64,000 nt of DNA from contig NZ_CP031217.1 of the NCBI RefSeq assembly GCF_003346815.1, positions 1,736,001-1,800,000 on the forward strand. The letters run 5' to 3'. Source of the stretch: Halarcobacter bivalviorum (lineage in GTDB: Bacteria; Campylobacterota; Campylobacteria; Campylobacterales; Arcobacteraceae). Under the pieces are notes generated by a model. It was not told the origin of the DNA. It worked only from the letters and a program-made list of their open reading frames with translations, and made no database searches. Position numbers and translations under genes: made by a program. The first letter of the stretch is position 1; every line of letters begins with the position of its first letter. Shown piece after piece: positions 7,307-22,300 of the stretch.

Positions 7307-8938
7307 TTATTTATCTATTACAAACTCCCTATTGAAATGGATTCTATAGTTCTTTGTAATATTTTTTAAAACTAATTTAGTAAATATATCATATGTAAAC
7401 ATATCACCACATAAACTTACACCTTCAACTTCATAAAAGTCATTTATATTATCAACTTCACTTGCAATAAAACTAGCTAAACTATCAATAAAACCTAAAG
7501 ACAGAGTAACTTCATCTACTCCTGCTAGTTTAAAACTCATTGCTGATTTAAACATAGAAACATAATCAAACTCTCTTAATGAGAGTTTTTCATTCTCTAT
7601 CATTTTAAAATCAACTCTAGGTCCTTTTTCTAAATGACAATTTTGTGCATTTATCAAAATCTCATTTTCAAAACCTAAAATCTCTTTTGCTACTTTAAAA
7701 TATGATAAAAATGATTTTATTCCTAAAGCTTTAAAATCAAAAGATAAAGAGTTTTCATACTCAAGCGAAAACTTCTTTTTATAGTTTTCTAAAAGTCTAT
7801 CTCCACTTTTTGATTCACTTATTTGTTTATAAAGTTCACTCATATCTTTAGGTAAAGAAAAGCTTTTTGAAATATCAACAAAACCATTTAACTCTTCAGA
7901 ATAAAAAGTAAATCTATCATCATTTTTTCTTGAAAGATAGAAGTTTAAAATTGCTTTATCAAAAAGCATATTTTCTGATAAAACAGTCATAAATTGAGCT
8001 TTATTTTTTTCTTCAAATCTTTCATAAATCACATCAAGATTCTTAGGATAAGAGTTTGAAGCAAGTATAAGCTTCTTATTCTCACAATAGATAATTTTTG
8101 GAATATCAATATTTACTTCAACATCAGCTTTTACATCTAAAAAACTATTATAAGAAGAATTTTCATCTTCTATTTGTAAAAAATCTATTTCATATTTTTC
8201 AAGCTCTTTAGAGAGTAAATAAAGAGTTAAATCATTTGCAACTCTTATTTCTATACTCTCTTTTATAGCTTGATTTTTCATCTTATAAATTTCATTTATT
8301 CTAAATTTAATTTGAGGTTTTTCAATACTTGCAAGAGCTACAATTGCTTGTTTATCTTCTACTACTAATTTTGAAATATTTTTTAAATTAGTACATAAAA
8401 GAACATCTACATCTTCAAGAGATTCAAGTTTTTTGAAAACAAATATCCCACTAACACTTTTTATTTTTATTCGTTTGTTTTCATTTATTAAAAAAGCTAA
8501 TCTTTCAAATAACTCTTTTGATGATTTCTCTTCTTTATTATCTAAAATAAATGTAGCATTCTCAAATGTACTACAGGTCTTGCAGAAATTGAAAGCATTA
8601 TAAAAGTTCGCACTTGATTCTTTTTCTACTTCTTCTAAACAAGAAGGACAAAATGAGTTTAAGGATTTCACTTCTGCTTTTATTGACTCAATTTGTGGCA
8701 TTTTTTTTACAACATCAACTTCAAGTCCTTCATAGTAAATTGACATTGGTAAATATTTAGAAAGGTCATTTGATAACTCTTCTATAATTTTTTCATCTTG
8801 TGCTTCAACTAATAAATAAACATGCTCTAAATCCTGCAAGATTTTATACTCACACTCATACTTTTCTACAATAGAGTATAAAATATTTACATAAGTTTTA
8901 TTTGTAGCTTTATATTTAAATTTATATTTTAGGACCAT
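7307..8938 (-). CDS. hydE: HydE-type hydrogenase accessory protein, degenerate HypF paralogue (copy 1)
   Basis: 543 aa. By position it matches HydE of the Helicobacter/Wolinella hydABCDE operons, which is needed for hydrogenase activity but of unclear mechanism (family knowledge). It is unrelated to the radical-SAM HydE of [FeFe] enzymes. In the sequence I see a remnant of HypF. Residues 97-122 form one C-x2-C-x18-C-x2-C zinc finger with exactly HypF spacing. Near the C terminus, GVSLCGDMFTYDIF aligns with LLFSGGVFQNKSLL of HypF. The catalytic acylphosphatase loop, the HHxAH motif and DGTGYG are missing, so it is unlikely to be an active carbamoyltransferase. It overlaps hydD1 by 17 bp and precedes hypF by 9 bp. 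Confidence 0.8.
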   Translation of the reverse strand: MVLKYKFKYKATNKTYVNILYSIVEKYECEYKILQDLEHVYLLVEAQDEKIIEELSNDLSKYLPMSIYYEGLEVDVVKKMPQIESIKAEVKSLNSFCPSCLEEVEKESSANFYNAFNFCKTCSTFENATFILDNKEEKSSKELFERLAFLINENKRIKIKSVSGIFVFKKLESLEDVDVLLCTNLKNISKLVVEDKQAIVALASIEKPQIKFRINEIYKMKNQAIKESIEIRVANDLTLYLLSKELEKYEIDFLQIEDENSSYNSFLDVKADVEVNIDIPKIIYCENKKLILASNSYPKNLDVIYERFEEKNKAQFMTVLSENMLFDKAILNFYLSRKNDDRFTFYSEELNGFVDISKSFSLPKDMSELYKQISESKSGDRLLENYKKKFSLEYENSLSFDFKALGIKSFLSYFKVAKEILGFENEILINAQNCHLEKGPRVDFKMIENEKLSLREFDYVSMFKSAMSFKLAGVDEVTLSLGFIDSLASFIASEVDNINDFYEVEGVSLCGDMFTYDIFTKLVLKNITKNYRIHFNREFVIDK

Positions 8939-9482
8939 TTATAATATCTCTTTTAAAAGAGATTTGAGCAATCTCTTCAATTGTCACTTCTCTTTTAATC
9001 TTCATTTCAATATCTAATTTTTGAAGATGTTTAATTATTACTTCTTCCATTAATTTAACGGCATCAATAATCTCTTTACTTAACTCAAAAGTAGTATCAT
9101 CAGCTACTCTTTTTGGAATAACTCCTAATACATTTGTTTGAGGTAAATCTTTATTCATATCAATCATATTAAGTGTTTGAAGCATCTCTACTTCATGGGC
9201 ACTTCCTTGCCAATTGATAAAAGAAGGAGCTTTATGATAATCAAAGAAATAAACATCTCCAGGTTTTGAGTTATCTGCATCAATACAATCAATTACAATA
9301 ACCTCATCATATTTTACAATTTCAGGAATAAGTCTTTGTGCTAAAGTACCACCATCAACAATACTAACAGTAGATTCTTTAGCTTCAAACTCATATTTTT
9401 CATCTAAATAATGAATAAAGTGAGCCCCTATTCCTTCGTCTTGGAATAGGATATTTCCTATTCCTAATATTAAAATATTCAT
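8922..9482 (-). CDS. hydD: Hydrogenase maturation endopeptidase (HyaD/HupD family), copy 1
   Basis: Ni-dependent protease that removes the C-terminal extension of the hydrogenase large subunit once nickel is inserted. 186 aa, typical of the M52 family. The opening ILGIGNILFQDEGIG contains Glu16, a nickel ligand in this family, followed by VDGGTLAQRL, IDCIDAD and GSAHEVEM, which supply the conserved Asp and His. It overlaps hydC1 by 4 bp and hydE1 by 17 bp, so all are translationally coupled. Its presumed substrate is HydB1, whose tail after the last His is 22 residues. Confidence 0.93.
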   Translation of the reverse strand: MNILILGIGNILFQDEGIGAHFIHYLDEKYEFEAKESTVSIVDGGTLAQRLIPEIVKYDEVIVIDCIDADNSKPGDVYFFDYHKAPSFINWQGSAHEVEMLQTLNMIDMNKDLPQTNVLGVIPKRVADDTTFELSKEIIDAVKLMEEVIIKHLQKLDIEMKIKREVTIEEIAQISFKRDIINGPKI

Positions 9483-10147
9483 TTATGTTCATCTTCCCAT
9501 TTATAACCAGAAATAATAGAATCCATTGCTCCACTTTTTCCATAAACAGAATTAAAAATTGCAAGATAAATATGTACTGGTAAAAAGATTATAAAAAACC
9601 ACATAGCTATATGATGAAGTTGTCTAACCCAAGCTAGTCCACCTAACATAACTTCTAATGGTCTTAAATAATCATATAAAAATCCACCAAGACCTCCATG
9701 ATAAACATGAATATGTAAAATTAAACCTGTAATACAAATTATTACTAAAGTAATATATACACCTAAATAAGCAACAAATTGTAAAGGATTATATACACCT
9801 TTTAATCTTGCATGTTTTCCTATTAATAAATAGTATTTAATCTGTTTAACCCAAACTTTTGGATTAATAAAATCCCAAAAAGAAACTCTTTCTATCTTAC
9901 TTTGTTTATCAAATAAAAATAGATAAAATTTTCCTATTGTAACTGCAATTAAAAGGAAACCAAAAATAATATGCCATGATCTCATTAAAGCATATAGATA
10001 GTTATTTGGCTCTCCTTGATTAAGTGCTGGTGCAATAAAAGGAATTGCAAGATAAAACCCAGTAAAAGTAAGAACTACAATTGCTATAGCTCTTACCCAG
10101 TGAGTAACTCTAACCCAAAACGAGAACTCATAATGTTTTTTTATCAT
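9479..10147 (-). CDS. hydC: Ni/Fe-hydrogenase b-type cytochrome subunit, copy 1
   Basis: 222-aa di-heme cytochrome b that anchors the hydrogenase in the inner membrane and passes electrons from H2 to menaquinone. Four long hydrophobic helices are visible, with His residues in and next to them (THWVRAIA, SWHIIFGF, LHIHVYHGG, QLHHIAMWF, PVHIYL) placed as expected for the two hemes. The start has AAGGGAG upstream. It lies 10 bp after hydB1 and overlaps hydD1 by 4 bp. Confidence 0.93.
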   Translation of the reverse strand: MIKKHYEFSFWVRVTHWVRAIAIVVLTFTGFYLAIPFIAPALNQGEPNNYLYALMRSWHIIFGFLLIAVTIGKFYLFLFDKQSKIERVSFWDFINPKVWVKQIKYYLLIGKHARLKGVYNPLQFVAYLGVYITLVIICITGLILHIHVYHGGLGGFLYDYLRPLEVMLGGLAWVRQLHHIAMWFFIIFLPVHIYLAIFNSVYGKSGAMDSIISGYKWEDEHK

Positions 10148-10157
10148 GACTACTCCC

Positions 10158-11888
10158 TTAACAAGATAGTCCGTAAATTGGATCTACTTTATATGTTCCT
10201 AAATCATTACCTTTTTTGTCCATTACGTGAACAGCACAAGCAATACAAGGGTCAAAAGAGTGGATAACTCTAATAATCTCTAAAGGTTGAGATAAATCTT
10301 GAACCTTTAATCCTACTAAGTTTGCTTCATAAGGTCCCATTTGTCCTAATGAATCAATTGGTCCAGCATTCCATGTTGAAGGAACAACTGCTTGGTAATT
10401 TTCTACAACACCATTTTTAATTCTAATCCAGTGAGAAAGCATACCTCTTGGAACATCACCAATAAATCTTCCTCTATACTCTTTATCTTTATCAATTTTA
10501 TATGAAGTATATGTATCTTGGTCTACTTTTAAATTCTCAATTAAAGTATTAAATGCTTCTAATCCATGTTTTGCAATTGCACGTGACTGAATCATTCTAG
10601 CTGCTGTTCTTCCTAAAGTTGTAAATAGTGCTGCTTTTGGAAGACCTGTTTTAGCTAAGAAATCATTTACAAGTGGAACAATTTTTTCATTTCCTTTTGC
10701 ATAAGAGATTAAAATAGCTGCTAATGGTCCAACTTCCATTGGTTTTCCATCATATCTAGGAGATTTAATCCAAGAGTATTTTCCTTTTTCATCAACTACT
10801 TTAGAGTGAATCATTTTACCATCAGGTCCAACTGTATCCATATCTCTAAAGCCAGTATAGTTAGGATTTGTTTTCCCTTCATATGGATGTAAAGCTTCAT
10901 TATCAGAGTACCAAGAGTGAGTTGCCTCTTCAGTAATTAAATCCTCATTGATTTCAAATACTTTTGCTAAATCCCCATTTTCAATAATTCCAGAATCAAA
11001 TAAAAACTCTGTTCTATTTAATTGCATCTCTTTATGAGACATGAAATTCATAACACCAGCTGGTGCAGTAACAGATGGCTCATCTTTAAACATCTTTGCA
11101 GCCATTACAACATCTGCTTGATATGCATTTTCAATAAAGTCTGCTCCAACTTTAAATAGAGTTAAATACTCACCCATTCTACTTGGGTCTAATAAATCCA
11201 TCACACATGTTACACCACCAACAGTTAAACTTTGTGGGTGTGGTTGTTTACCACCAAACATAGCCATAAGTTTTGCTAACTCTCTTTGAACTTCTAAAGC
11301 TTTTAAATAGTGTGATAAAAGAATTAAGTTTTGTTCAGGAGTTAATCTATAAGTTTTATGTCCCCAATAAGCATTTGCGAAAGGTCCTAATTGTCCTTTA
11401 GCAACAAACTCTTTTACTCTTGTTTTAACTTTTTTAAGGTCATTTTCTCCAGTTGCAATTGGAAACTCTGCATAATCAAATGCCTCTTTAGAAGCTTTTG
11501 CAGGGTCTGCATCAAGTGCAGAAACAACATCAACCCAATCAAGTCCATGTAAATGATAAAAGTGAACCACATGGTCATGCATAAATAAAGCCATGTTCAT
11601 TAAAGACCTAGTAAGTTTTGCATTTAATGGAGGAACAATACCTAGTGCATCTTCAACTGCTTCAATTCCTGCTCGATAGTGAGAGAAAGTACAAACACCA
11701 CAAATTCTTTGCATTAAAAAACCTGCATCTCTTGGGTCTCTATTTTTAACAATTGTCTCTAAACCTCTCCACAAAGTAGAAGTAGAATAAGCATTTTGAA
11801 TTACATTGTTTTCATCAACTTCAACCTCAATTCTTAAGTGTCCTTCAATCCTTGTAATTGGGTCTACGATAACTCTTTTATTTGCCAT
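10158..11888 (-). CDS. hydB: [NiFe] hydrogenase large subunit, copy 1 (group 1 uptake type)
   Basis: Catalytic subunit holding the NiFe(CN)2CO centre, exported with HydA to the periplasmic side. 576 aa. The N-terminal ligand pair is RICGVC (Cys63, Cys66) and the C-terminal pair DPCIACAVH (Cys548, Cys551, His554). A 22-residue extension (VMDKKGNDLG...YGLSC) after His554 is removed by HydD. The gas-channel residues are the standard Val65 and Leu113, as in catalytic hydrogenases. It starts 3 bp after hydA1. The strong SD AGGAG lies inside the hydA1 end. Together with the TAT signal on HydA1 and HydC1 this fits the H2-oxidising respiratory (group 1b-like) enzymes of Campylobacterota. Confidence 0.97.
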   Translation of the reverse strand: MANKRVIVDPITRIEGHLRIEVEVDENNVIQNAYSTSTLWRGLETIVKNRDPRDAGFLMQRICGVCTFSHYRAGIEAVEDALGIVPPLNAKLTRSLMNMALFMHDHVVHFYHLHGLDWVDVVSALDADPAKASKEAFDYAEFPIATGENDLKKVKTRVKEFVAKGQLGPFANAYWGHKTYRLTPEQNLILLSHYLKALEVQRELAKLMAMFGGKQPHPQSLTVGGVTCVMDLLDPSRMGEYLTLFKVGADFIENAYQADVVMAAKMFKDEPSVTAPAGVMNFMSHKEMQLNRTEFLFDSGIIENGDLAKVFEINEDLITEEATHSWYSDNEALHPYEGKTNPNYTGFRDMDTVGPDGKMIHSKVVDEKGKYSWIKSPRYDGKPMEVGPLAAILISYAKGNEKIVPLVNDFLAKTGLPKAALFTTLGRTAARMIQSRAIAKHGLEAFNTLIENLKVDQDTYTSYKIDKDKEYRGRFIGDVPRGMLSHWIRIKNGVVENYQAVVPSTWNAGPIDSLGQMGPYEANLVGLKVQDLSQPLEIIRVIHSFDPCIACAVHVMDKKGNDLGTYKVDPIYGLSC

Positions 11889-11891
11889 ATT

Positions 11892-13085
11892 TTACTCCTC
11901 TCCATCTTTCGGGTTTTTAAATTTTGAAATAGCTGCGTGTGCTGCAATACCGATACCTGTAACAGTTAATAATCCTACACCGATTTTATCTGCTGTTGCA
12001 TCTGCACCAAGCCCTTTAAATACTGTGTTATATAATCTATTTGCAACTGGTTCTTCAAATGGTCCCATAGTATCCCAAAAATCAGGTTCACTACATCCAA
12101 TACATCCATGTCCTGCTTGAATAGGCCAAGACATATGCGAGTTAAATTTATTTTTTGAACAGTTATTAAAAGTATATGGTCCTTTACAACCTACTTTATA
12201 TAAACAATAACCTTTTTTAGCACCTTCATCACCAAATTCTTCAACAAATTCACCTGCATCAAAGTGCCCTCTTCTTTCACATAAGTCGTGTACTCTTTTT
12301 GCATAAGCCCATTTTGGTCTATTATATGCATCAAGTGCAGGAAGTGTTCCATAAAGAATATAGTGTAATAAAGTTCCAACAATATTTTTCTCACTTGGAG
12401 GACAACCTGGAACATTAATAACTGGTTTATCAGTGATTTTCGAAAGAGCAACGGCTCCTGTAGGATTTGGAATTGCTGCTTGAACTCCACCATAAGAAGA
12501 ACATGTACCAATAGCAAATATTGCTGCAGCATTTTTAGATGCTTTTTTAGCAGAATACTCACCCGTATGTCCATGTCCACCAATAGTTAAATAGTGAGCA
12601 CTATTTCCAGAAGGAATTCCACCTTCTACCATTAAAATATATTGCCCTTTATAAGCCTCAATTGCATGTTCTAAATTATGTTCAGCTTGCCAACCTGCTG
12701 CTGCCATTAATGTTTCATGGTATTCTAATGAAATATAATCAAAAATCAATGAATCAATAGTTGGGGCATCTGTTCTAAGAAGTGATTCACTACATCCTGT
12801 ACACTCAGCCATATGTAACCAGATAATTGGAAGTCTATCACTTAATTTAGCAGCTTTTGCAACAAGTGGTGTAAAAGAACCAGGAAGAGCAAGCATTGCA
12901 GTAATAGCAGTAGCCCACTTCATAAAATCTCTTCTTGAAACACCATTTTCTTCTAAATGACTCTCTATAGATTTATTCTCTTTTAGTCTAGGAAGTCTCT
13001 CTAAGTCATTTAACCTTTTAGTCAGTTTTTCATATAGTCTTTGCTCTTGCAAAATCCATCCTTCGCCTAATGAATGAATATTCAT
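11892..13085 (-). CDS. hydA: [NiFe] hydrogenase small subunit with TAT signal, copy 1
   Basis: Electron-transfer subunit with three FeS clusters. A long N-terminal region leads to a twin-arginine signal (SRRDFMKW, Arg51-Arg52), which exports the folded HydA-HydB pair. The proximal cluster has all four canonical Cys: CTGC (Cys95, Cys98), GTCSSYGG and VPGCPP. The sequence is CTGCSES rather than CTCCSES, so the extra Cys of O2-tolerant enzymes is absent. HGCIGCSEPDFWD supplies further ligands, and a C-terminal membrane anchor follows. The ATG at 13085 has no clear SD and falls within a palindrome. A TTG at 13052 (codon 12) has GAAGGA six bases upstream and may be the real start. Confidence 0.95.
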   Translation of the reverse strand: MNIHSLGEGWILQEQRLYEKLTKRLNDLERLPRLKENKSIESHLEENGVSRRDFMKWATAITAMLALPGSFTPLVAKAAKLSDRLPIIWLHMAECTGCSESLLRTDAPTIDSLIFDYISLEYHETLMAAAGWQAEHNLEHAIEAYKGQYILMVEGGIPSGNSAHYLTIGGHGHTGEYSAKKASKNAAAIFAIGTCSSYGGVQAAIPNPTGAVALSKITDKPVINVPGCPPSEKNIVGTLLHYILYGTLPALDAYNRPKWAYAKRVHDLCERRGHFDAGEFVEEFGDEGAKKGYCLYKVGCKGPYTFNNCSKNKFNSHMSWPIQAGHGCIGCSEPDFWDTMGPFEEPVANRLYNTVFKGLGADATADKIGVGLLTVTGIGIAAHAAISKFKNPKDGEE

Positions 13086-13086: not shown

Positions 13087-13174
13087 TTATTAATTTAATA
13101 AAATTCTATACTATAAAAGGTTAAAGTTTCTTGACCGAAATCAAAAAACATGAATGATTGTTCATTTTTTTAAA

Positions 13175-13220: not shown

Positions 13221-14756
13221 TTAGTAATCTAAAGGATATTCTTTTGGAATTAAAATATTGATAGAGTTAAGTTTTTTCTTTACTTTTGAAAGTAAAATAG
13301 AGTTTGCAAACATATCACCACAAAGAATAATATCTTTTGCATTTATTTCATTTTGTATTTCACTTATATTATCTGAAATAAAATCACATAAAGACTCATA
13401 AAAAGAGTATGCAAGTAGACTATTTTCTACTCCTGCCATTTTATAACTCATTGTACTTTGAATTATTCTTCTATAGTCTAAATAGTTTTTATCATCTATT
13501 TTTACAACTTTCATATCTATTTGAAGTCCACTTTTTCCAGTAAACATTAAAGCAGTATCTTCAAACTGTTTATAATCTTTCATTCCTAAAACATAAGCTA
13601 ACATATTTAAAATAGCTTCAAAACCATCTAAATCTTTGTCTTTAAATTCTTTTTCAAAATAGTTTGAAAATTTATTTTTATAATTATCAATTAATCTATT
13701 TGTATTCTCATCAATACTTTTTATATCTTCAAAACATTTTTCAATATTATTTACTACATTTGGAACTAAAATTATATCTTTTTCACCATGTTCAACACTA
13801 TTAATTTTTATTGCTGATTCATCACTTTTATATGAGAAATAAACTCCAATTGTAGATACTAATCTTTTATTAAATTGTGCAATACATGCTTTATAAACAG
13901 AGCCATACTCTTCAAAATAATCTAAACTAGAATTTACTCTTCTTTTTAAATCAAAATCATATTTAGGGAAAAGGCCCTTTTCTCCATGAATTATAATATT
14001 TTGTTCTTCATTATATGTAACTTTTAAGCCATCTTGATAAACCTCATCATTAATATAAAGTAAATAATCAATTCCTGCTTCTTTTAAAGCTTGCGCAAAA
14101 AGTAGAGTCTCTTTATCATCTGGTATTTTTGCATAAATAAATCTTGTACTTGAAAATTCTGATTTAGCATTTTTTAAAAGTTTAAATTTAAGTTTAATAA
14201 GTGGTCTCTCTATTGAACATAATAGTTGTAAATCTTTTTGTGAAATATCAACTAGATTTGAGATTTTATTTATATTTGTTATTAAAAGTTTTACTTCATA
14301 ACCTAGTTTTTCAAACTTTTCCCTTTGTTCAACTGAAGGTAAAAATAAATCTTTTAAGCCATTATGAGTCTCAAATCTAGATACTCCACCTCCTTTTATT
14401 TTTTCAATATCATTAGAAAAATCTATATTGTTTTCATTTATAGTTTTTGTAATTTCATCATTTGTAAGTAATGAAAGATTTAACTTTACATCTTGTTCTT
14501 CTAACTCTTCAAATGCTTCAAAATCAAACTTTTCAAGAACTTGTGCTTTTGAAATGAAGATTGATAAAGGTAATTTCTCTTCAAGTATTTTAAAAAAATT
14601 CTCAATTTTTTCAGCTTCATCTTCACAAACTAAAAGAATAAATCCTCTATACATTTTAGAATATGCATTTATAGTAGATTCTTGAATTAAATCATCTATA
14701 ATATGTTTAAAATAGAAATTTGTACTATTAAAATCAATTTTATAAATTAGTTCCAT
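13221..14756 (-). CDS. hydE: HydE-type hydrogenase accessory protein, degenerate HypF paralogue (copy 2)
   Basis: 511 aa, clearly a relative of the HydE at 7307-8938: both share the C-terminal block (IILCGDMFANSILLSK here, GVSLCGDMFTYDIFTK there) and a preceding YKMAGVENSLLAYSFYESL-like helix. FTGKSGLQIDMKV aligns with the FEGETGLAIE region of HypF, tying it to the HypF Kae1-like domain. It lacks the Cys4 zinc finger seen in copy 1 and all HypF catalytic motifs. It overlaps hydD2 by 10 bp, so it is coupled to the second hydrogenase unit. The role is inferred as scaffold or chaperone for HydB2 or HydA2. Confidence 0.75.
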   Translation of the reverse strand: MELIYKIDFNSTNFYFKHIIDDLIQESTINAYSKMYRGFILLVCEDEAEKIENFFKILEEKLPLSIFISKAQVLEKFDFEAFEELEEQDVKLNLSLLTNDEITKTINENNIDFSNDIEKIKGGGVSRFETHNGLKDLFLPSVEQREKFEKLGYEVKLLITNINKISNLVDISQKDLQLLCSIERPLIKLKFKLLKNAKSEFSSTRFIYAKIPDDKETLLFAQALKEAGIDYLLYINDEVYQDGLKVTYNEEQNIIIHGEKGLFPKYDFDLKRRVNSSLDYFEEYGSVYKACIAQFNKRLVSTIGVYFSYKSDESAIKINSVEHGEKDIILVPNVVNNIEKCFEDIKSIDENTNRLIDNYKNKFSNYFEKEFKDKDLDGFEAILNMLAYVLGMKDYKQFEDTALMFTGKSGLQIDMKVVKIDDKNYLDYRRIIQSTMSYKMAGVENSLLAYSFYESLCDFISDNISEIQNEINAKDIILCGDMFANSILLSKVKKKLNSINILIPKEYPLDY

Positions 14757-15322
14757 GTTGTATCTTCCTCATTTGGAATTCTTGTTAAATGTTCACCATT
14801 ATAACTTCCAATTAATCCTTGTGCAACTGTTTTTAAATCTTTATTATCAACTTTTTTAATAGTTACACCAATATTCTCAATCTCTTGCAAAGCTTGTGAA
14901 ATAAAAGCCTCAAACTTCTCTTCTAGTTTTGGAGTTAATCCTATCTCTACTGATTCAATATCTTCTGGAATAATTCCAAGAATTGTAACTGTTGCATGTT
15001 TATCTAAAACTGAACAAATCTCAAGCATCTCTACAATCTCAACTTCATGTGCAGTTTTTCTATATTGCCCCATTCCAAGAAGAACCTCAGAAGGCAATCT
15101 ATAAATTGAACCTGCTTCATCTTCCACAGAAACTGTATCTAAAATAATAACATTATCATACTCTTGAAAATATGTCATTAGTTTAAAACCTAAAGTACCA
15201 CCATCAATTATCTCTAAACTATCATCAAACTCATAATTTTCCTGTAAAAATTTAGAAGCATAAATTCCTACACCCTCATCTTTAAACAATACATTTCCAA
15301 CCCCAACTACAATATTTTTCAT
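14747..15322 (-). CDS. hydD: Hydrogenase maturation endopeptidase (HyaD/HupD family), copy 2
   Basis: 191-aa M52-type protease for the second hydrogenase. It starts IVVGVGNVLFKDEGVGIYA (Glu16 at the nickel site) and continues with IIDGGTLGFKL, ILDTVSVED and KTAHEVEIVEML carrying the conserved Asp and His. The presumed substrate is HydB2, which has its own 22-residue extension. Having one protease per catalytic hydrogenase follows the known specificity of this family. It is separated from hydC2 by 119 bp containing a terminator hairpin and overlaps hydE2 by 10 bp. The start ATG at 15322 has TAGGA upstream. Confidence 0.92.
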   Translation of the reverse strand: MKNIVVGVGNVLFKDEGVGIYASKFLQENYEFDDSLEIIDGGTLGFKLMTYFQEYDNVIILDTVSVEDEAGSIYRLPSEVLLGMGQYRKTAHEVEIVEMLEICSVLDKHATVTILGIIPEDIESVEIGLTPKLEEKFEAFISQALQEIENIGVTIKKVDNKDLKTVAQGLIGSYNGEHLTRIPNEEDTTWN

Positions 15323-15386
15323 AAAAAATCCTATTAAATTAAAAAACTCACTAAAATCAAAATTATTGATTTTAATGAATCTTCAT

Positions 15387-15418
15387 AAAAAAAGGCTATA
15401 GCATTGTAGCCATAGCCT
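15387..15418 (-). terminator. Terminator between hydABC2 and hydDE2
   Basis: AGGCTAT (15393-15399) pairs with ATAGCCT (15412-15418), with an inner GC/GC pair. On the minus strand the stem is followed by seven T residues. It lies right after hydC2 and before hydD2, so it probably lowers expression of the accessory genes relative to the structural genes. Confidence 0.8.
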
Positions 15419-15441
15419 CTTGAAGTAAAAATAAAACTATC

Positions 15442-16173
15442 TTAATCGTTTTTTTCTACTTCACCTTTTGAATTAACAATATTTTTGTTAACAAATTTTG
15501 TTCCACCAAATACAATATTGATGTCACCTTCTCTCCAGAAAATTGTTCTCCATATTTGGTAATAAATATGACACATAACCCACATAAGAATTAAATACAT
15601 AGCTGTATGATGAGCAATTCTAACTCCCATATTTCCACCAAATACATCTAAAGTCCAATCAGTTGCAAAGTGTAACATCCAAGGCCACCAAGCTCCAATA
15701 GAACTAGTACCAGATGCTAAACCATGAACATAAAGTTGAAGTCCTGTTAATAACATAAATACTAATAGAATATGAAAAAGTGTAAAAAACATAATGTTAT
15801 AAGAATCACTATGTGTTGAATCAAATTTCTTTCTTCTATTAAATGTCATTAAGTTAAAGAATACTTCACAAAACTCTATAAAGTTTTTCTTTGTTGGTAA
15901 AATCTTTTTATATGGCTTTTCAAACCTAGAAAAAAGATATAAATAACCAATTAAGATAGCTGTAACATCAAAGATAATTGCAGCTATGAAGTGTCCCCAT
16001 CTATTCCATGCCATCACATATTTATCAACTGCAGGGTCTGCAATTAATGTTTGATAGTATGGGTATCCAATATATAGCCCGGTTGCAACCGCTACAATCA
16101 TACAAATAGCATTCATCCAGTGAATGATTCGCATGATTGGGGTCATTCTTTCAACCCGCTTCATTTTAGGCAC
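15442..16173 (-). CDS. hydC: Ni/Fe-hydrogenase b-type cytochrome subunit, copy 2
   Basis: 243-aa membrane cytochrome b that takes electrons from HydA2 to the quinone pool. Four hydrophobic helices with heme-ligand His candidates are visible: IIHWMNAI, RWGHFIAAI, LFHILLVF, YVHGL, IAHHTAMYL and MCHIYYQ. It starts with GTG at 16173, overlapping the hydB2 stop by 8 bp, with the SD AGGAGG formed by the last codons of hydB2. Compared with HydC1 it has a longer hydrophilic insert in the middle (FNRRKKFDSTHSDSYN). It is followed by a terminator. Confidence 0.93.
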   Translation of the reverse strand: MPKMKRVERMTPIMRIIHWMNAICMIVAVATGLYIGYPYYQTLIADPAVDKYVMAWNRWGHFIAAIIFDVTAILIGYLYLFSRFEKPYKKILPTKKNFIEFCEVFFNLMTFNRRKKFDSTHSDSYNIMFFTLFHILLVFMLLTGLQLYVHGLASGTSSIGAWWPWMLHFATDWTLDVFGGNMGVRIAHHTAMYLILMWVMCHIYYQIWRTIFWREGDINIVFGGTKFVNKNIVNSKGEVEKND

Positions 16174-17902
16174 GGCATCCTCCTAAAGGATCTACTTTAT
16201 AAACGGCTAACTCTTTACCATTTGTATCTACAATATGAACTGCACAAGCGATACAAGGGTCAAAACTATGCACTGTTCTAATAATCTCTAAAGGCTCATC
16301 AGGATTTACAACTTTAGTTCCAACTAATGAAGCTTCATATGCTCCTAATCTACCTTTATAATCTTTTGGTGCTGCATTCCAAGTTGAAGGAACAACAGCT
16401 TGATAATTCATAACTTTTCCATCTTTGATTTTAACCCAGTGACCTAAACCACCTCTTGGTGCTTCTGCCATACCATAACCTTGTGCATCTTTTGCAACTT
16501 TGTCAAAATCAAACTCAGTCCAAGTAGATAAATCACCACTTGCAACATTTGCTGCTAATTCATCACACCAGTTAATAACTTCTTCACACATTAATTCAGT
16601 TTCAATTGCACGTGCTGCTGTTCTTCCTACTGTTGAAAAAAGAACTTTTGTTGGTAAGTTTCCATTTTTTAAGAATGTTGTTACATATTTAGTAATTCTT
16701 TCATCACCTCTTGCAACTCCTACAACCATTCTTGCTAATGGTCCTACTTCCATTCTCTCATCATCATATAATGGAGATTTAATCCAAGAGTATTTTTTAT
16801 CAGTATCTAAATATGCAATACCATCTTTTTTCTCTTTAAACCCTGTATAATTAGGATTAGTAACTCCATCATATGGATGTTTATTTGTTGTACCTTCATA
16901 CCAAGCGTGAGTTACATCTTCTGTAATTTTTGTTTGGTCTAAATCATAAACTTTTGATAAATCTTTGTTCATAACTACACCTGAAGGGAATAGTTTTGCA
17001 GAGTCATAGAATGGTAAATCATCTAAGTTAAAGTCTCCATAAGACATAAAGTTACCAAGACCACCACCAACACCAGCAAGTGCTTCATCAGCATACATTG
17101 TTCCAGCCATATAAACATCTGGTAAATATGCTTGTTTAGTAAACTTAAGAGCTCTTTGAATAATATCTTTAAACTCTGCAACTCTTACAGGATTTTTAAT
17201 ATCTTGAACACAAGTTACTCCACCAACTACAATTGATTGAGGGTGTGGATTTTTACCACCAAAAATAGCTTGTGCTTTTGCTACTTCTCTTTGTAATTCT
17301 AAAGCATCTAAATAGTGAGAAAGACCAATTAAGTTTTGCTCAGGAGTTAATTTATATGCTTTACTTCCCCAATATGCATTTCCAAAAATACCAAGTCTTC
17401 CTTGTTTTACATACTTAGCAACTCTTTCTTGAACTGCTGCATAATTATCTTCAGAAGCATTCCATGGTCTTTGACCTGAAAGTTTTGCCCACTTTTGAGC
17501 CTCTTCAACTGTCTTTTTAGGGTCAGCTTCTAAAGCTTTTGTAATATCTACCCAGTCAAGTGCATGTAAATGATAGAAATGAACAATATGGTCATGAATA
17601 TATAATCCACCTTGCATAAGGTTTCTAACAAGTCTTGCATTTTTTGGAATAGTAACACCAAAAGCATGTTCAACTGCTTCAATACTTCTTTGATAGTGAG
17701 TTCCTGTACATACACCACAAATTCTCATAGCTAAAAGACCACAATCTCTAGGGTCTCTACCTTTTAAAATTTCTTCAATACCTCTAAACATCGTTGAAGA
17801 ACTATAAGCCTCTTGAATAACATTATTGTCATCAATTACTGCTTCAATTCTAAGATGTCCTTCGATTCTTGTTATTGGATCTATTACTACATGTTTACTC
17901 AT
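16166..17902 (-). CDS. hydB: [NiFe] hydrogenase large subunit, copy 2 (group 1 uptake type)
   Basis: 578-aa catalytic subunit, a close relative of HydB1. Active-site Cys are at RICGVC (Cys62, Cys65) and DPCIACAVH (Cys550, Cys553, His556). A 22-residue cleavable extension follows (IVDTNGKELA...GGCRA). The gas-channel positions are the catalytic-type Val64 and Leu in HFYHL. Together with HydA2 and HydC2 it forms a second periplasmic membrane-bound hydrogenase. Whether it oxidises H2, as expected for this subgroup, or works in reverse cannot be told from sequence. Confidence 0.97.
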   Translation of the reverse strand: MSKHVVIDPITRIEGHLRIEAVIDDNNVIQEAYSSSTMFRGIEEILKGRDPRDCGLLAMRICGVCTGTHYQRSIEAVEHAFGVTIPKNARLVRNLMQGGLYIHDHIVHFYHLHALDWVDITKALEADPKKTVEEAQKWAKLSGQRPWNASEDNYAAVQERVAKYVKQGRLGIFGNAYWGSKAYKLTPEQNLIGLSHYLDALELQREVAKAQAIFGGKNPHPQSIVVGGVTCVQDIKNPVRVAEFKDIIQRALKFTKQAYLPDVYMAGTMYADEALAGVGGGLGNFMSYGDFNLDDLPFYDSAKLFPSGVVMNKDLSKVYDLDQTKITEDVTHAWYEGTTNKHPYDGVTNPNYTGFKEKKDGIAYLDTDKKYSWIKSPLYDDERMEVGPLARMVVGVARGDERITKYVTTFLKNGNLPTKVLFSTVGRTAARAIETELMCEEVINWCDELAANVASGDLSTWTEFDFDKVAKDAQGYGMAEAPRGGLGHWVKIKDGKVMNYQAVVPSTWNAAPKDYKGRLGAYEASLVGTKVVNPDEPLEIIRTVHSFDPCIACAVHIVDTNGKELAVYKVDPLGGCRA

Positions 17903-17905
17903 CTC

Positions 17906-19144
17906 TTATTCCTCATCTTCACTGTGAACTGTTCTTTTCCCTGCAACTGCACTTGCAACTGCATGTACACCAATACCAATTGTTGTTGCTGTTAATAATC
18001 CTAAACCAAACTCATCAACAGTTTTTTCTACTCCACCAGTAGGAGCTTTAATATTTGCATCTGCCATTGGTCTTTCATATGCATATTTATCCCAGAAATC
18101 TGGTTCAGAACATCCAATACATCCACGTCCAACACCAATAGGCCAGTTCGCACCTTCGTTATATCTAATAATTGAACAGTTATTAAATGTCATAGGCCCT
18201 TTACAACCTACTTTATATAAACAGAAATTATTTTGAGCTCCAATATCTCCCCACTCTTCAACAAATTCACCAGCATCAAAGTGAGCTCTTCTTTCACAAT
18301 TATCATGGATTCTATAACCAAAAGCAAATTTTGGTCTAAGAAGTGAATCTAGTTCTGGAACTTGACCTGTTAATACATAATGTAAAACTACACCAACCAT
18401 ATTTGCAGGATTTGCGGGACAAGCAGGAATATTAATAACAGGTTTACCTTTTACTAAATCCATTACACCAACTGCACCTGTTGGATTTGGAGCTGCTGCA
18501 GGAACACCTCCATAAGTTGCACATGTACCAACTGCTACAACTGCTGCTGCATCTTTTGATAATCTAGCTAAATGCTCTTGGAAAGTCTCTCCACTAGGAC
18601 CAATAGTTCCATATTGACCATTTAATGCTGTCGGGATAGCTCCCTCAACAAATAATAGATACTTTCCTTTGAAATGATGCATTGCATCTTCTAATTGATG
18701 CTCTGCTTGATGTCCTGAAGCTGCCATTAAAGTATGGTGAAACTCTAATGAAAGAACATCAAAAAGTAAATCATCTACAGTAGGAGTAGAAGACCTTAAA
18801 ATAGCTTCTGAATTACCAGCACAGTCTTGTAATTCAATCCAAATTACAGGAACTCTATTCATAAGCTCAGTTGCTTCAGCAACTAAAGGAGTAAACATAG
18901 GAGGTAACATAAGTGTTGCAGTTGTAGCACTTGCCCACTTCATAAAATCTCTTCTGTTTACACCTTCACTCTCCACTACTTCCATCATATCGATATCTTT
19001 TAGTGCAGGTTGTGCTCTTAATGCTTTAAGTCTCTCTTTTGCCTTTTCAAAAAGCGAGTTGTAATAAGCATCACCTTTGTTTGTATCAATTCTTGCAGAA
19101 TTCTGGGTAAAAACTTTTTTTACCATCTCTTGAGAATCAACCAT
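17906..19144 (-). CDS. hydA: [NiFe] hydrogenase small subunit with TAT signal, copy 2; variant proximal cluster
   Basis: 412 aa. The twin-arginine signal is NRRDFMKW (Arg64-Arg65). Three proximal-cluster Cys are present: Cys108 in DCAGNSEA, then GTCATYGG and IPACPANP. The fourth canonical Cys (CxxC, Cys98 in HydA1) is Asn111 here. This predicts an altered proximal cluster, either [3Fe-4S] or a [4Fe-4S] with a non-Cys ligand. Medial and distal ligands (DNCERRAHFD, YKVGCKGP, NNCS, GCIGCSEPDFWD) are intact, and a C-terminal hydrophobic anchor follows. The start ATG has a strong SD (AAGGAGAGG). The promoter and operator lie immediately upstream. Confidence 0.95.
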   Translation of the reverse strand: MVDSQEMVKKVFTQNSARIDTNKGDAYYNSLFEKAKERLKALRAQPALKDIDMMEVVESEGVNRRDFMKWASATTATLMLPPMFTPLVAEATELMNRVPVIWIELQDCAGNSEAILRSSTPTVDDLLFDVLSLEFHHTLMAASGHQAEHQLEDAMHHFKGKYLLFVEGAIPTALNGQYGTIGPSGETFQEHLARLSKDAAAVVAVGTCATYGGVPAAAPNPTGAVGVMDLVKGKPVINIPACPANPANMVGVVLHYVLTGQVPELDSLLRPKFAFGYRIHDNCERRAHFDAGEFVEEWGDIGAQNNFCLYKVGCKGPMTFNNCSIIRYNEGANWPIGVGRGCIGCSEPDFWDKYAYERPMADANIKAPTGGVEKTVDEFGLGLLTATTIGIGVHAVASAVAGKRTVHSEDEE

Positions 19145-19164: not shown

Positions 19165-19192
19165 TAAATGAACATTCATTTATCTCATTATA
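19165..19192 (-). promoter_or_regulatory. hydA2 promoter (-10) overlapped by a palindromic operator
   Basis: TAAATGAACATTCATTTA (19165-19182) is palindromic except for its two central bases. It lies 4 bp downstream of a perfect minus-strand -10 box, TATAAT (19187-19192). The predicted transcription start, about 19180, is inside the palindrome, so a bound repressor would block initiation. Same motif as at hydA1 and tetR. Confidence 0.65.
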
Positions 19193-19392: not shown

Positions 19393-20748
19393 TTAGTGAG
19401 TAGTACAAACAGAGCAAACATCAAAACTTCGTAAAATAAGTTTTGCTTTTTCTATAGAGTTTGTTCCTATTATTGCTTTTTGCGAAGTTGAAAGTTTTCC
19501 ATCTATACCAGGACCTAAATTCCAAACAGTAGGAGTAATAACATCATATTTAGATATTTTTCCATCTTCAATTTCTACTTCATGATATAGTGAACCTCGA
19601 CAAGCTTCAACTGCAACTTCTGCTAATCCATGTTTAAACTCATTTATAGAAATCTTAGGTTTGATAAAAGAATCTTCACTTATATCAACTCTTTTTATTA
19701 ATTCTTTTGTTTTTTTAAGTAAAAAACCAAGTTCATCCATTCTTGCCATTACTCTTGTAAACATCGAGTCTTTATAGTGTTTATGTACACTTGAAATAAA
19801 TTTTCTATTTTGTACTAAAGTTCTTGATAAAGGACCTGTTTCATAAAAGTTATTTGCATATAAAGCACTTTTAGACCAAGTATATGCATCTTTTGAATTT
19901 TTACTTTTATCAATATTAAAAGTGTTTAAAGAGAGTTCTTCTATATTTTCGAAATCAATATTTTTGATTAGTTTTTTATTGATTTTTCCCTCTTCAAAAG
20001 ATAAAGAACTTCCTAACACTAAATGTCTATTATATGATTTTCCTATTTTTTCAAAACCATTTTCAAAAGATAAAGTAATAAAATCTTTTAAATCTGCTTT
20101 TACTTTATAAAGGTCTTCTGCTTCATTAAAAGATAAATAGTTTTCAATTTCCATACCAACTAAATTATTTTCAAAAAACTTAATTCCATAATCAATATAA
20201 TTTTGCATAGTAGTTAAATCAAGTAAAGTAGGATCACTAACAACTCCACCAGGTATCATATATGAAGTATGAGGCCATTGACCACCAATAATAGCTAATA
20301 CTTTTATAACTTCACTTGCACAAGCAGAAGCCTCTAACCATTTTTTACCTTTTAACGCTTTATATTCTGAATAATCATTATTAGAAAACTTAACTACATC
20401 AGGCATAATAAACATATAAAACCATTTTATATGAGAATCAATAATCTCTATATTTAAGCCTACTTCTCTAAGTAATTTTGCTTTATTTGTTATAATTAAT
20501 TCTTCATTATGATTTTTATAAATTTGTTCTAAAGCTTCAACTGTTGCTTTTAAGTGAGCTTGTCCACAAATCCCACAAATTCTTGGAGTATAAACTAAAG
20601 CATCTAAAGGAGCTTTCCCTTTTAAAATATATTCAAAGCCTCTAAAATTTAAAAACTCTACTCTTACATCAGAAATTTTATTTTTTTCCCATTGACAAAC
20701 TAATTTTGCTTCACCCTCTATTCTTTCTACAATATCAACAGTTTTCAT
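19393..20748 (-). CDS. hupV: Cytoplasmic group-2 [NiFe] hydrogenase large subunit, probable H2 sensor (HupV/HoxC-like)
   Basis: 451 aa, shorter than HydB. Active-site Cys are at RICGIC (Cys58, Cys61) and DVCSVCTTH (Cys445, Cys448, His451). The protein ends at that His, so it lacks the extension that normally needs a maturation protease; this is a feature of HoxC/HupV sensor hydrogenases. Ile60 and Phe113 occupy the gas-channel positions that are Val and Leu in HydB1/HydB2. The same Val-to-Ile and Leu-to-Phe change is known in regulatory hydrogenases and linked to O2 insensitivity. The ATG overlaps the hupU stop by 4 bp. An alternative is a group-2d-like catalytic cytosolic enzyme; no partner kinase or cyclase is nearby. 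Confidence 0.85.
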   Translation of the reverse strand: MKTVDIVERIEGEAKLVCQWEKNKISDVRVEFLNFRGFEYILKGKAPLDALVYTPRICGICGQAHLKATVEALEQIYKNHNEELIITNKAKLLREVGLNIEIIDSHIKWFYMFIMPDVVKFSNNDYSEYKALKGKKWLEASACASEVIKVLAIIGGQWPHTSYMIPGGVVSDPTLLDLTTMQNYIDYGIKFFENNLVGMEIENYLSFNEAEDLYKVKADLKDFITLSFENGFEKIGKSYNRHLVLGSSLSFEEGKINKKLIKNIDFENIEELSLNTFNIDKSKNSKDAYTWSKSALYANNFYETGPLSRTLVQNRKFISSVHKHYKDSMFTRVMARMDELGFLLKKTKELIKRVDISEDSFIKPKISINEFKHGLAEVAVEACRGSLYHEVEIEDGKISKYDVITPTVWNLGPGIDGKLSTSQKAIIGTNSIEKAKLILRSFDVCSVCTTH

Positions 20749-21647
20749 TTAATAATTCTTTCATGTAATCTTTCAATTTTAAAAGTTTTTGCAACTCCAG
20801 CAAGAGATAGATATGCTCTTTTACTAACACCAATTGGTACTTGGTCAGGAATACCTATATTCTTTTTTGTTTCCAACATATTATCCCTTGGGAAATCAAA
20901 CTCTGTACAACCAATACAAGGCATTCCTGCTCTTGTTTTAGTATTTACATCATTCCATAATACTCTATTGCAATTTGAGTGAGTCATAGGTCCTCGACAC
21001 CCTTGCTCATAAAAAAGGCAGCCCTCTTTTAATCCAAAAGATTTGGCTTCAACTTTCCATTCAAAATATTCATTTCTAGTACAACCATGATGTGCTAAAT
21101 GAGAATATATCTCTTTAGGCCTTCCTTTTTCATCAAGTCCAATTTTTTTATACTCTTTTAATGAAAATAGAGTTTGAAAAATCCATTCAGGATGTACAGG
21201 ACAGCCAGTAAGATTTATTATAGGATGAAATAAAGAAGATATCTCTTTTTTTTCTAAAGCCTCTTCTAAACCAAAAATATCACTATTTTGTTCAAATTTT
21301 TTATGAACTCCACCATAAGAAGCACATGAACCGACAGCAATTAAATATTTTGATTTTAAAACAAGCTTTTTTAAAACTTCACTTGTAGTTTGATTAGATA
21401 TTTGAAAGAAATCTTTATTTGAAGTAATTGCTCCTTCAACAAGTAAAAAGTCAATCTCTTCATTTTGTTGAAGTAACTCTTCTAATAGAAGTTCTGTAGT
21501 TAAAGAAGGATGATAAATAAGATTAAAACTATCTAAAAATAGTTTTAATCTATTTGCATTTGCACTTAAAAGTGAGTGAGTATTTCCATTGCAAGTTATA
21601 GCTTGAAGCCAAACTATTTTAGGTTTACTACACTCCCTACTCGTCAT
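20745..21647 (-). CDS. hupU: Cytoplasmic group-2 [NiFe] hydrogenase small subunit (HupU/HoxB-like)
   Basis: 300 aa, with no twin-arginine signal and no C-terminal anchor, so the pair should stay in the cytoplasm. FeS ligands visible are Cys19 in TCNGNTHS (group-2 form, Asn where group 1 has the second Cys), GSCASYGG and LTGCPVHP, then HHGCTRNEYFE, GCLFYEQGCRGP, SNCNRV and GMPCIGC. The ATG lies inside the end of the tetR gene (11-bp overlap) and its stop overlaps hupV, so the regulator and both subunits should be made together. The function is inferred as H2 detection for the regulator encoded just upstream. Confidence 0.87.
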   Translation of the reverse strand: MTSRECSKPKIVWLQAITCNGNTHSLLSANANRLKLFLDSFNLIYHPSLTTELLLEELLQQNEEIDFLLVEGAITSNKDFFQISNQTTSEVLKKLVLKSKYLIAVGSCASYGGVHKKFEQNSDIFGLEEALEKKEISSLFHPIINLTGCPVHPEWIFQTLFSLKEYKKIGLDEKGRPKEIYSHLAHHGCTRNEYFEWKVEAKSFGLKEGCLFYEQGCRGPMTHSNCNRVLWNDVNTKTRAGMPCIGCTEFDFPRDNMLETKKNIGIPDQVPIGVSKRAYLSLAGVAKTFKIERLHERIIK

Positions 21648-22227
21648 ACTTTAAAGCTCTATAGATGTTTTGGGCTACAGCATCAGAATAAGATACAATC
21701 TCTTTATCTAAAACCTTTTCTCCTGAAAGAAAAGCAAAACCACCAAGAGCACCCATAATCATAGCAAAAGCAGGGAAAAAGTCTTGTTGTCTAAACTCTT
21801 TACTCGCTGCACCTTCATCTAGTAAAATCATAACTTCTGTTACAAATTCACTTACACATAAAAAGCCTTCACAATCTTTATTAAAAACTTCTCTATTTGA
21901 TAAATAAACCCTTAAAAAATACTCAATTACTTCAGGTGATTTTTGAACATTTTCTAAATATTTTTTTGTAAATAAGAATACTTTATCTTTAGATGAAATT
22001 TGCAGTTGATTGATTTCTCTTAAATCTCTAGCTAAGATATTAGTTGAATACTTAATGGCAAACTTTGCTAACTCTTCTTTTGATTTAAAATAGTTATACA
22101 TATTCCCAACACTCATACTCATAGCTTTTGCTATATCAGGAATTGTTGTATTATAAAAACCATTTTTAGAGAACAGTAGTAAAGACTTTTCAATAATTGA
22201 ATTTTTCTTTTCTTCTTTTAAAGTCAC
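21637..22227 (-). CDS. TetR/AcrR-family transcriptional regulator, coupled to hupUV
   Basis: 196 aa. The N-terminal helix-turn-helix is typical of TetR proteins: LLLFSKNGFYNTTIPDIAKA, then MSVGNMYNYFKSKEELAK (residues about 16-55). The rest is helical and would be the ligand-binding and dimer domain. It has Cys119 and Cys124 (CEGFLC), which could sense redox state or a metal (inference). The start is GTG at 22227 with AAGGA five bases upstream. The gene overlaps hupU by 11 bp. A palindrome matching sites at hydA1 and hydA2 lies in its own promoter region, so it probably controls itself and both hydrogenase operons. Confidence 0.88.
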   Translation of the reverse strand: MTLKEEKKNSIIEKSLLLFSKNGFYNTTIPDIAKAMSMSVGNMYNYFKSKEELAKFAIKYSTNILARDLREINQLQISSKDKVFLFTKKYLENVQKSPEVIEYFLRVYLSNREVFNKDCEGFLCVSEFVTEVMILLDEGAASKEFRQQDFFPAFAMIMGALGGFAFLSGEKVLDKEIVSYSDAVAQNIYRALKYDE

Positions 22228-22286
22228 ATTGTTCCTTGGATTTAAAATTTGTTATTTTTATTATAATATGAAAAAAGTTAATAGTA

Positions 22287-22300
22287 AATGAATATTCATA
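22287..22300. promoter_or_regulatory. Palindromic operator candidate upstream of tetR
   Basis: AATGAATATTCATA contains the perfect 12-bp palindrome ATGAATATTCAT (22288-22299). It sits about 25 bp upstream of a minus-strand -10-like TATAAT (22260-22265), overlapping where the -35 element would be. Autoregulation is the likely role. Confidence 0.6.

Follow-up and report, generated by a model that had tools for sequence, protein, structure and literature searches.

A TetR-family gene tied to a cytoplasmic [NiFe] hydrogenase across the Campylobacteria, with predicted operators at hydrogenase promoters

In Halarcobacter bivalviorum, and wherever the upstream context is intact in the class Campylobacteria, the genes of a cytoplasmic [NiFe] hydrogenase, hupU and hupV, are directly preceded by the gene of a TetR-family regulator, and a defined palindrome stands before the uptake hydrogenase gene hydA in genomes that carry this TetR. 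The TetR protein is very probably the cognate regulator of the hydrogenase promoters, with these palindromes as its predicted operators. The most economical full explanation, which we consider probable, is that TetR represses the genes of H2 use and that HupUV relieves this repression without a kinase.

The tetR-hupU-hupV locus and its conservation

The window, that is the whole stretch of DNA analyzed (64,000 nucleotides), carries on its minus strand, in order, acnB, a terminator-like hairpin, tetR-hupU-hupV, hydA1B1CD, a HypF-like gene and hydA2B2-cytochrome b-protease, with hypB and further hyp genes adjoining just left of its edge (Table 1). The overlaps reported in the earlier note, 11 bp between tetR and hupU and 4 bp between hupU and hupV, are borne out by the coordinates. 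The regulator matches TetR_N (PF00440, E 3.6e-12), HupU matches Oxidored_q6 (PF01058) and NiFe_hyd_SSU_C (PF14720), and HupV matches NiFeSe_Hases (PF00374); no Tat motif was seen at the HupU N-terminus. Promoter-like matches around tetR are no more numerous than expected by chance, being frequent by chance in such AT-rich DNA. The start of hydA1 lies 248 nt past hupV, and hydA1 has promoter-like and operator sequences of its own upstream. Beside a full-length HypF gene there are two further open reading frames, each placed after the protease gene of a hydrogenase operon; the sole match of the 511-aa frame is to the HypF C-terminal subdomain.

Table 1. Features of the hydrogenase region, in window positions
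Feature	Position	Strand	Description
terminator-like hairpin	22349-22319		between acnB and tetR
predicted TetR operator ATGAATATTCAT	22288..22299	minus	5' of tetR; touches the -35 of the promoter-like site
sigma-70-like promoter of tetR-hupUV	22260..22288	minus	TTTACT-17-TATAAT, 10/12 matches
tetR	22227-21637	minus	GTG start, 196 aa; predicted FadR-like TetR-family repressor
tetR/hupU overlap	21637-21647
hupU (huaS)	21647-20745	minus	300 aa; cytoplasmic [NiFe] hydrogenase small subunit
hupU/hupV overlap	20745-20748
hupV (huaL)	20748-19393	minus	451 aa; [NiFe] hydrogenase large subunit
predicted operator ATGAATGTTCAT	19168..19179	minus	between TATAAT and the hydA1 ribosome site
hydA1-hydB1-hydC-hydD	14747..19144	minus	Tat-exported uptake hydrogenase, cytochrome b, protease; predicted TetR target
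weak operator-like site	15375..15386	minus	one mismatch; 5' of hydD protease gene
open reading frame	13221-14756		511 aa
second predicted operator ATGAACAATCAT	13154..13165	minus	imperfect, one mismatch; 5' of hydA2
predicted operator ATGAATATTCATTCA	13071..13085	minus	overlaps the hydA2 start codon
hydA2-hydB2-cytochrome b-protease	8922..13085	minus	second uptake hydrogenase; predicted TetR target
open reading frame	7307-8938		543 aa
hypF	5069-7297		full-length

Across the class, TetR forms a single orthologous family found in 115 of 397 genomes, and HupV was found in 107 of the 397 at the cut-offs used. The two occur together in 106 of the 107 HupV genomes; in the remaining one (G295) a contig edge falls inside hupU. 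Adjacency of tetR and hupUV, which the earlier note had proposed looking for in other genomes, is conserved: tetR lies directly upstream in each of the 106 HupV genomes whose upstream region is complete, and the tetR-to-hupV gap of 824-1643 nt provides space for hupU, or for hupU and an insert. The median tetR-hupU gap is -11 nt and the two genes overlap in 54 of 76 cases, with start codons assigned by a simple rule. Tight gene packing by itself is weak evidence; adjacency throughout a class is far beyond chance. The order tetR-hupUV-hydABC is kept across the families of the class, tetR stands 5' of hupUV at every locus of the named relatives that is long enough (one sequence, L017, ends before tetR), and the same arrangement is annotated on plasmids of Sulfurimonas paralvinellae and Sulfurovum mangrovi. 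A draft contig of Malaciobacter halophilus (L018) has an early stop in the tetR frame. TetR without adjacent HupUV is found in two genomes, G348 and G143, both of which keep tetR next to hydA with an operator. In the same check a third genome, G204, showed a fragment only, and several genomes of family f5 that had first been scored as TetR-only contain a divergent HupV. A phage collection returned distant matches only.

Some close relatives carry an insert of several hundred bases between hupU and hupV (L015:8241-9071; L161-L163), which in L015 holds an opposite-strand open reading frame resembling, when read by eye, a transglutaminase-like cysteine protease. In the same Arcobacter metagenome-assembled genome (L015; also G292, L161) an in-frame TAG replaces a conserved Glu codon of hupU (L015:7371-8246).

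Predicted operators and the predicted regulon

The candidate operator was found by side-by-side reading of hydA upstream sequences in sampled families. It is a palindrome just 5' of the ribosome site, TGAAT-N4-ATTCA, or TGAAYRTTCA in Arcobacteraceae, and reads mainly ATGAATRTTCAT or ATGAACATTCAT in Arcobacteraceae and mainly TGAATGATTATTCA or TGAATAATCATTCA in non-Arcobacter lineages. A scan for palindromes shared between tetR and hydA upstream sequences yielded mostly AT-rich noise. Because both patterns were fixed from TetR-positive sequences, counts in TetR-positive loci are not blind; the blind sets are the hydA genes of TetR-negative genomes (28 from 27 genomes, several of the same families and some of the same genus, g2, as TetR-positive ones) and the distant hydA copies of TetR-positive genomes.

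At the level of sequence, the presence of the operator depends on TetR. Among tetR-adjacent hydA genes the operator is exact in 57 of 73 and present in all 73 with at most one mismatch, against 0.2 and 5.7 expected from shuffled sequence, whereas TetR-negative hydA genes have it exactly in 0 of 28 and with at most one mismatch in 4 (0.1 and 2.3 expected). Fisher's test on exact sites gives p ~6e-14, a value that ignores relatedness; the pattern is nevertheless seen across 34 genera, of which 27 have an exact site. Distant hydA copies of TetR-positive genomes carry the exact operator in 6 of 11 cases. In 71 of 73 loci the hydA operator is closely preceded by a -10-like hexamer, so that a bound protein would occupy the transcription start, a repressor position. 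An exact operator precedes tetR in just 6 of 82 fetched loci, and autoregulation was therefore rejected as a universal trait.

The 2.68 Mb of the present genome contain ATGAAYRTTCAT at six places. Five occurrences precede tetR, hydA1, hydA2, hypB and nrfH, and the sixth lies inside pyrG; four of the six fall within a 24-kb stretch (p ~1e-7, taking the stretch as given). The remaining TGAATN4ATTCA sites genome-wide revealed no coherent further regulon. The operators thus tie TetR to hydA1 and hydA2, whose control the earlier note had suspected, while the predicted regulon is wider than it had supposed and includes hyp and nrfHA. The predicted sites fall at H2 and nitrite genes, not at fatty-acid genes.

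The predicted nrfH operator lies outside the window, 71 nt 5' of nrfHA (G000:C1:480162, L217:1563). Among 23 nrfH copies of Arcobacteraceae, TGAATN4ATTCA is exact in 14 and has one mismatch in 4. The nrfH copies of two genomes known to lack TetR (G030, G323) have no operator, and TetR-positive genomes of the same genus (G297, G337, G346, G370) have exact sites. The metagenome-assembled genome G292 carries an intact tetR and hydA1 operator, yet its nrfH operator is missing. Most nrfH operators are followed on the 3' side by an FNR/CRP-like TTGA...TCAA box, which suggests that nrf is probably under a second regulator besides TetR.

The hydrogenase, the regulator and known systems

The HupV tree resolves a separate campylobacterial clade (support 100/100) that includes neither HoxC/HupV (2b) nor 2a-like enzymes; the earlier note had set this sensor-like hydrogenase beside HoxBC/HupUV, and by phylogeny it falls outside that family. 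HoxC and the present HupV share 25% identity over their match. Like HoxBC and HupUV of the HoxBC-HoxJ-HoxA and HupUV-HupT-HupR systems, the enzyme is a cytoplasmic [NiFe] hydrogenase that lacks a C-terminal extension and is encoded beside its regulator, and uptake hydrogenase genes are the predicted targets to be switched on. In contrast to the kinase and NtrC-type regulator of HoxBC systems, the latter of the sigma-54 class in C. necator, there is here a TetR, with sigma-70-like promoters, a repressor-type operator and no sigma-54. HupV terminates at CSVCTTH with no maturation extension, and about 80 homologues of the class end right after CxxCxx[HQK]; by analogy with sensor hydrogenases, which also lack the extension, this would support a sensor-like role. 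The lack of a visible Tat motif is another trait in common with sensors. In Arcobacteraceae, HupV I60 and F113 correspond to Ile and Phe of HoxC at what we take to be gas-channel positions, the Phe being Val or Thr in Sulfurimonas and Sulfurovum. Near the proximal iron-sulphur cluster, HydA1-type small subunits (17906-19144 in the window) and most HupU have C-x-G-N, whereas other small subunits have C-x-G-C at the same position.

The organism, the gene order and the names used in the literature identify the enzyme as the Campylobacterota hydrogenase known as group 2d, HuaSL or HupSL, whose role is disputed between sensor and catalyst. The group 2d assignment is taken from the literature, in which the group is compared with Aquifex hydrogenase III, and the HupV tree was built without an Aquifex sequence. 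Published proposals for group 2d are that it supplies electrons for CO2 fixation, recycles H2 or senses without a named partner; none of those found connects the enzyme with hyd or nrf genes through a TetR operator.

The regulator has the TetR_N helix-turn-helix and the all-helical C-terminal domain of the TetR family, and its structure model is all-helical (mean pLDDT 90.4). Cys119 and Cys124, the two residues that the earlier note had picked out, are present and invariant in 81 orthologues; they sit in the loop that leads into helix 126-141, within or next to the part modelled with least certainty. The closest solved fold is that of Bacillus FadR, an acyl-CoA-responsive TetR-family protein (TM-score about 0.8). 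The two proteins differ in that identity is about 20%, the present regulator scores 40.1 bits where the NCBIfam FadR cut-off is 200, and its predicted sites are found at genes for hydrogenases and nitrite reductase. None of the four PDB alignments examined pairs the CX4C loop, which is either unmatched or beyond the aligned part.

Proposed coupling and its alternatives

We propose that TetR would act as a dedicated repressor on the TGAAT-N4-ATTCA and TGAAYRTTCA palindromes at sigma-70-type uptake hydrogenase promoters, its targets in Arcobacteraceae extending to hyp, nrfHA and, in part, its own operon. Cytoplasmic HupUV, co-produced with TetR, would serve as the H2 sensor and, when H2 is present, would lift repression, with neither kinase nor response regulator involved. 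The signal would probably reach TetR by direct contact or by a thiol-redox change of the Cys119/Cys124 loop; the sequence is compatible with either of these and also with a metabolite as the carrier. Stated in full, namely that the group 2d hydrogenase senses H2 and acts on TetR directly or by redox, with no phosphorelay, in many families of Campylobacteria, and that in Arcobacteraceae it gates nrfHA too, the proposal has our modest preference. Several observations count against it: the FadR-like fold, the Phe of HupV that is not kept in Sulfurimonas and Sulfurovum, the minority of loci with an operator before tetR, and, in S. multivorans, the expression of hydB regardless of added H2 together with barely any expression of hupL. 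In addition, G143 and G348 keep TetR, both cysteines and the operator without HupUV, and TetR may therefore have another input.

That input could be a small molecule, such as the acyl-CoA sensed by Bacillus FadR or some other reduced metabolite, with TetR still governing the hydrogenase regulon. The fold favors this possibility, as do the predicted operator, which resembles FadR-type sites, and the persistence of TetR in the two genomes just named; a further point in its favor is the hypothesis that group 2d enzymes feed the reductive TCA cycle (PMC5401914). However, hupUV was never found without TetR, and a shared regulon would not require so tight a linkage, as the operator is retained at distant hydA genes that are not adjacent to tetR. 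Group 2d is present in A. butzleri, yet key reductive TCA genes have not been identified there, and the location of the predicted sites does not point to fatty-acid genes. On balance a small-molecule input seems unlikely. A narrower role was proposed by Kruse et al. 2017, who noted the TetR upstream of hupSL in S. multivorans and suggested a local repressor of hupSL (PMC5357620), which would make the link to hyd incidental. The operator before tetR in part of the Arcobacteraceae fits such a repressor, but its presence at all 73 hydA loci of TetR-positive genomes with at most one mismatch, against 6 of 82 exact sites at tetR, and the two genomes that retain TetR and operator beside hydA with no hupUV, make it very improbable that the role ends there.

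Alternatively, a kinase encoded elsewhere could couple HupUV to hyd in the manner of HoxJ and HoxA, leaving TetR as a minor layer. The genome has many histidine kinases, and HoxJ as a query matched 86 stretches, but nearly all of these matches are confined to the kinase domain; HoxA matched receiver domains only, with weak AAA+ matches of up to 30.5 bits. Neither a HoxJ/HupT-type kinase gene near hupUV nor a HoxJ or HoxA counterpart or an NtrC-type activator in this genome was found, and sigma-54 is absent from it, in agreement with the earlier note's remark that kinase and NtrC-type regulator are missing from the locus. A. butzleri has likewise been reported to lack NtrC/NtrB homologues and RpoN (PMC2147049). 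With TetR as the conserved partner of HupUV, we regard a distant kinase as improbable.

Published expression data bear indirectly on the proposed relief of TetR repression by HupUV. In A. butzleri hDNRA1, nitrite ammonification is H2-dependent, and with H2 the level of nrfA went up 4-fold and those of the two hynAB sets 2.3-6.2-fold, while huaSL decreased, in a comparison of H2 with acetate in which 1191 genes changed (PMC12286921). The rise of the hydrogenases and nrfA agrees with the regulon predicted from other strains and, given the acetate comparison and the breadth of the change, is supportive but short of proof. The drop in huaSL argues against simple autoregulation in A. butzleri, and two Aliarcobacter loci (L020, L021) have the operator before hydA1 and none before tetR. 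In S. multivorans, hydB expression is found in nearly every condition, whether H2 is added or not, and hupL is barely expressed (PMC5357620). Sulfurospirillum is also described as producing H2 from pyruvate (PMC6242987), and such self-made H2 could mask regulation.

In a literature search with subscription journals mostly outside it, no paper was found that assigns regulation of hyd to this TetR, and none with the operator map, the linkage across the class, the comparison with TetR-negative genomes or the connection to nrfHA. If the proposal is true, H2 gating of nrfHA would go some way to explaining why nitrite ammonification in Aliarcobacter has been reported to depend on H2, and a kinase-free mode of H2 sensing would be added for bacteria. 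For the disputed role of group 2d, as sensor or as feeder of CO2 fixation, the operator map makes the question directly testable. A compact H2 biosensor could also be built from a small repressor and a sensor hydrogenase.

Two further hydrogenase loci were noted. A second group 2-like hydrogenase (G037, L270:3983-6414) clusters with an Ideonella enzyme whose gene adjoins a diguanylate cyclase/phosphodiesterase gene, and a 2a-like hydrogenase on a Runella plasmid (L030:1-1277) is preceded by two TetR-family genes.
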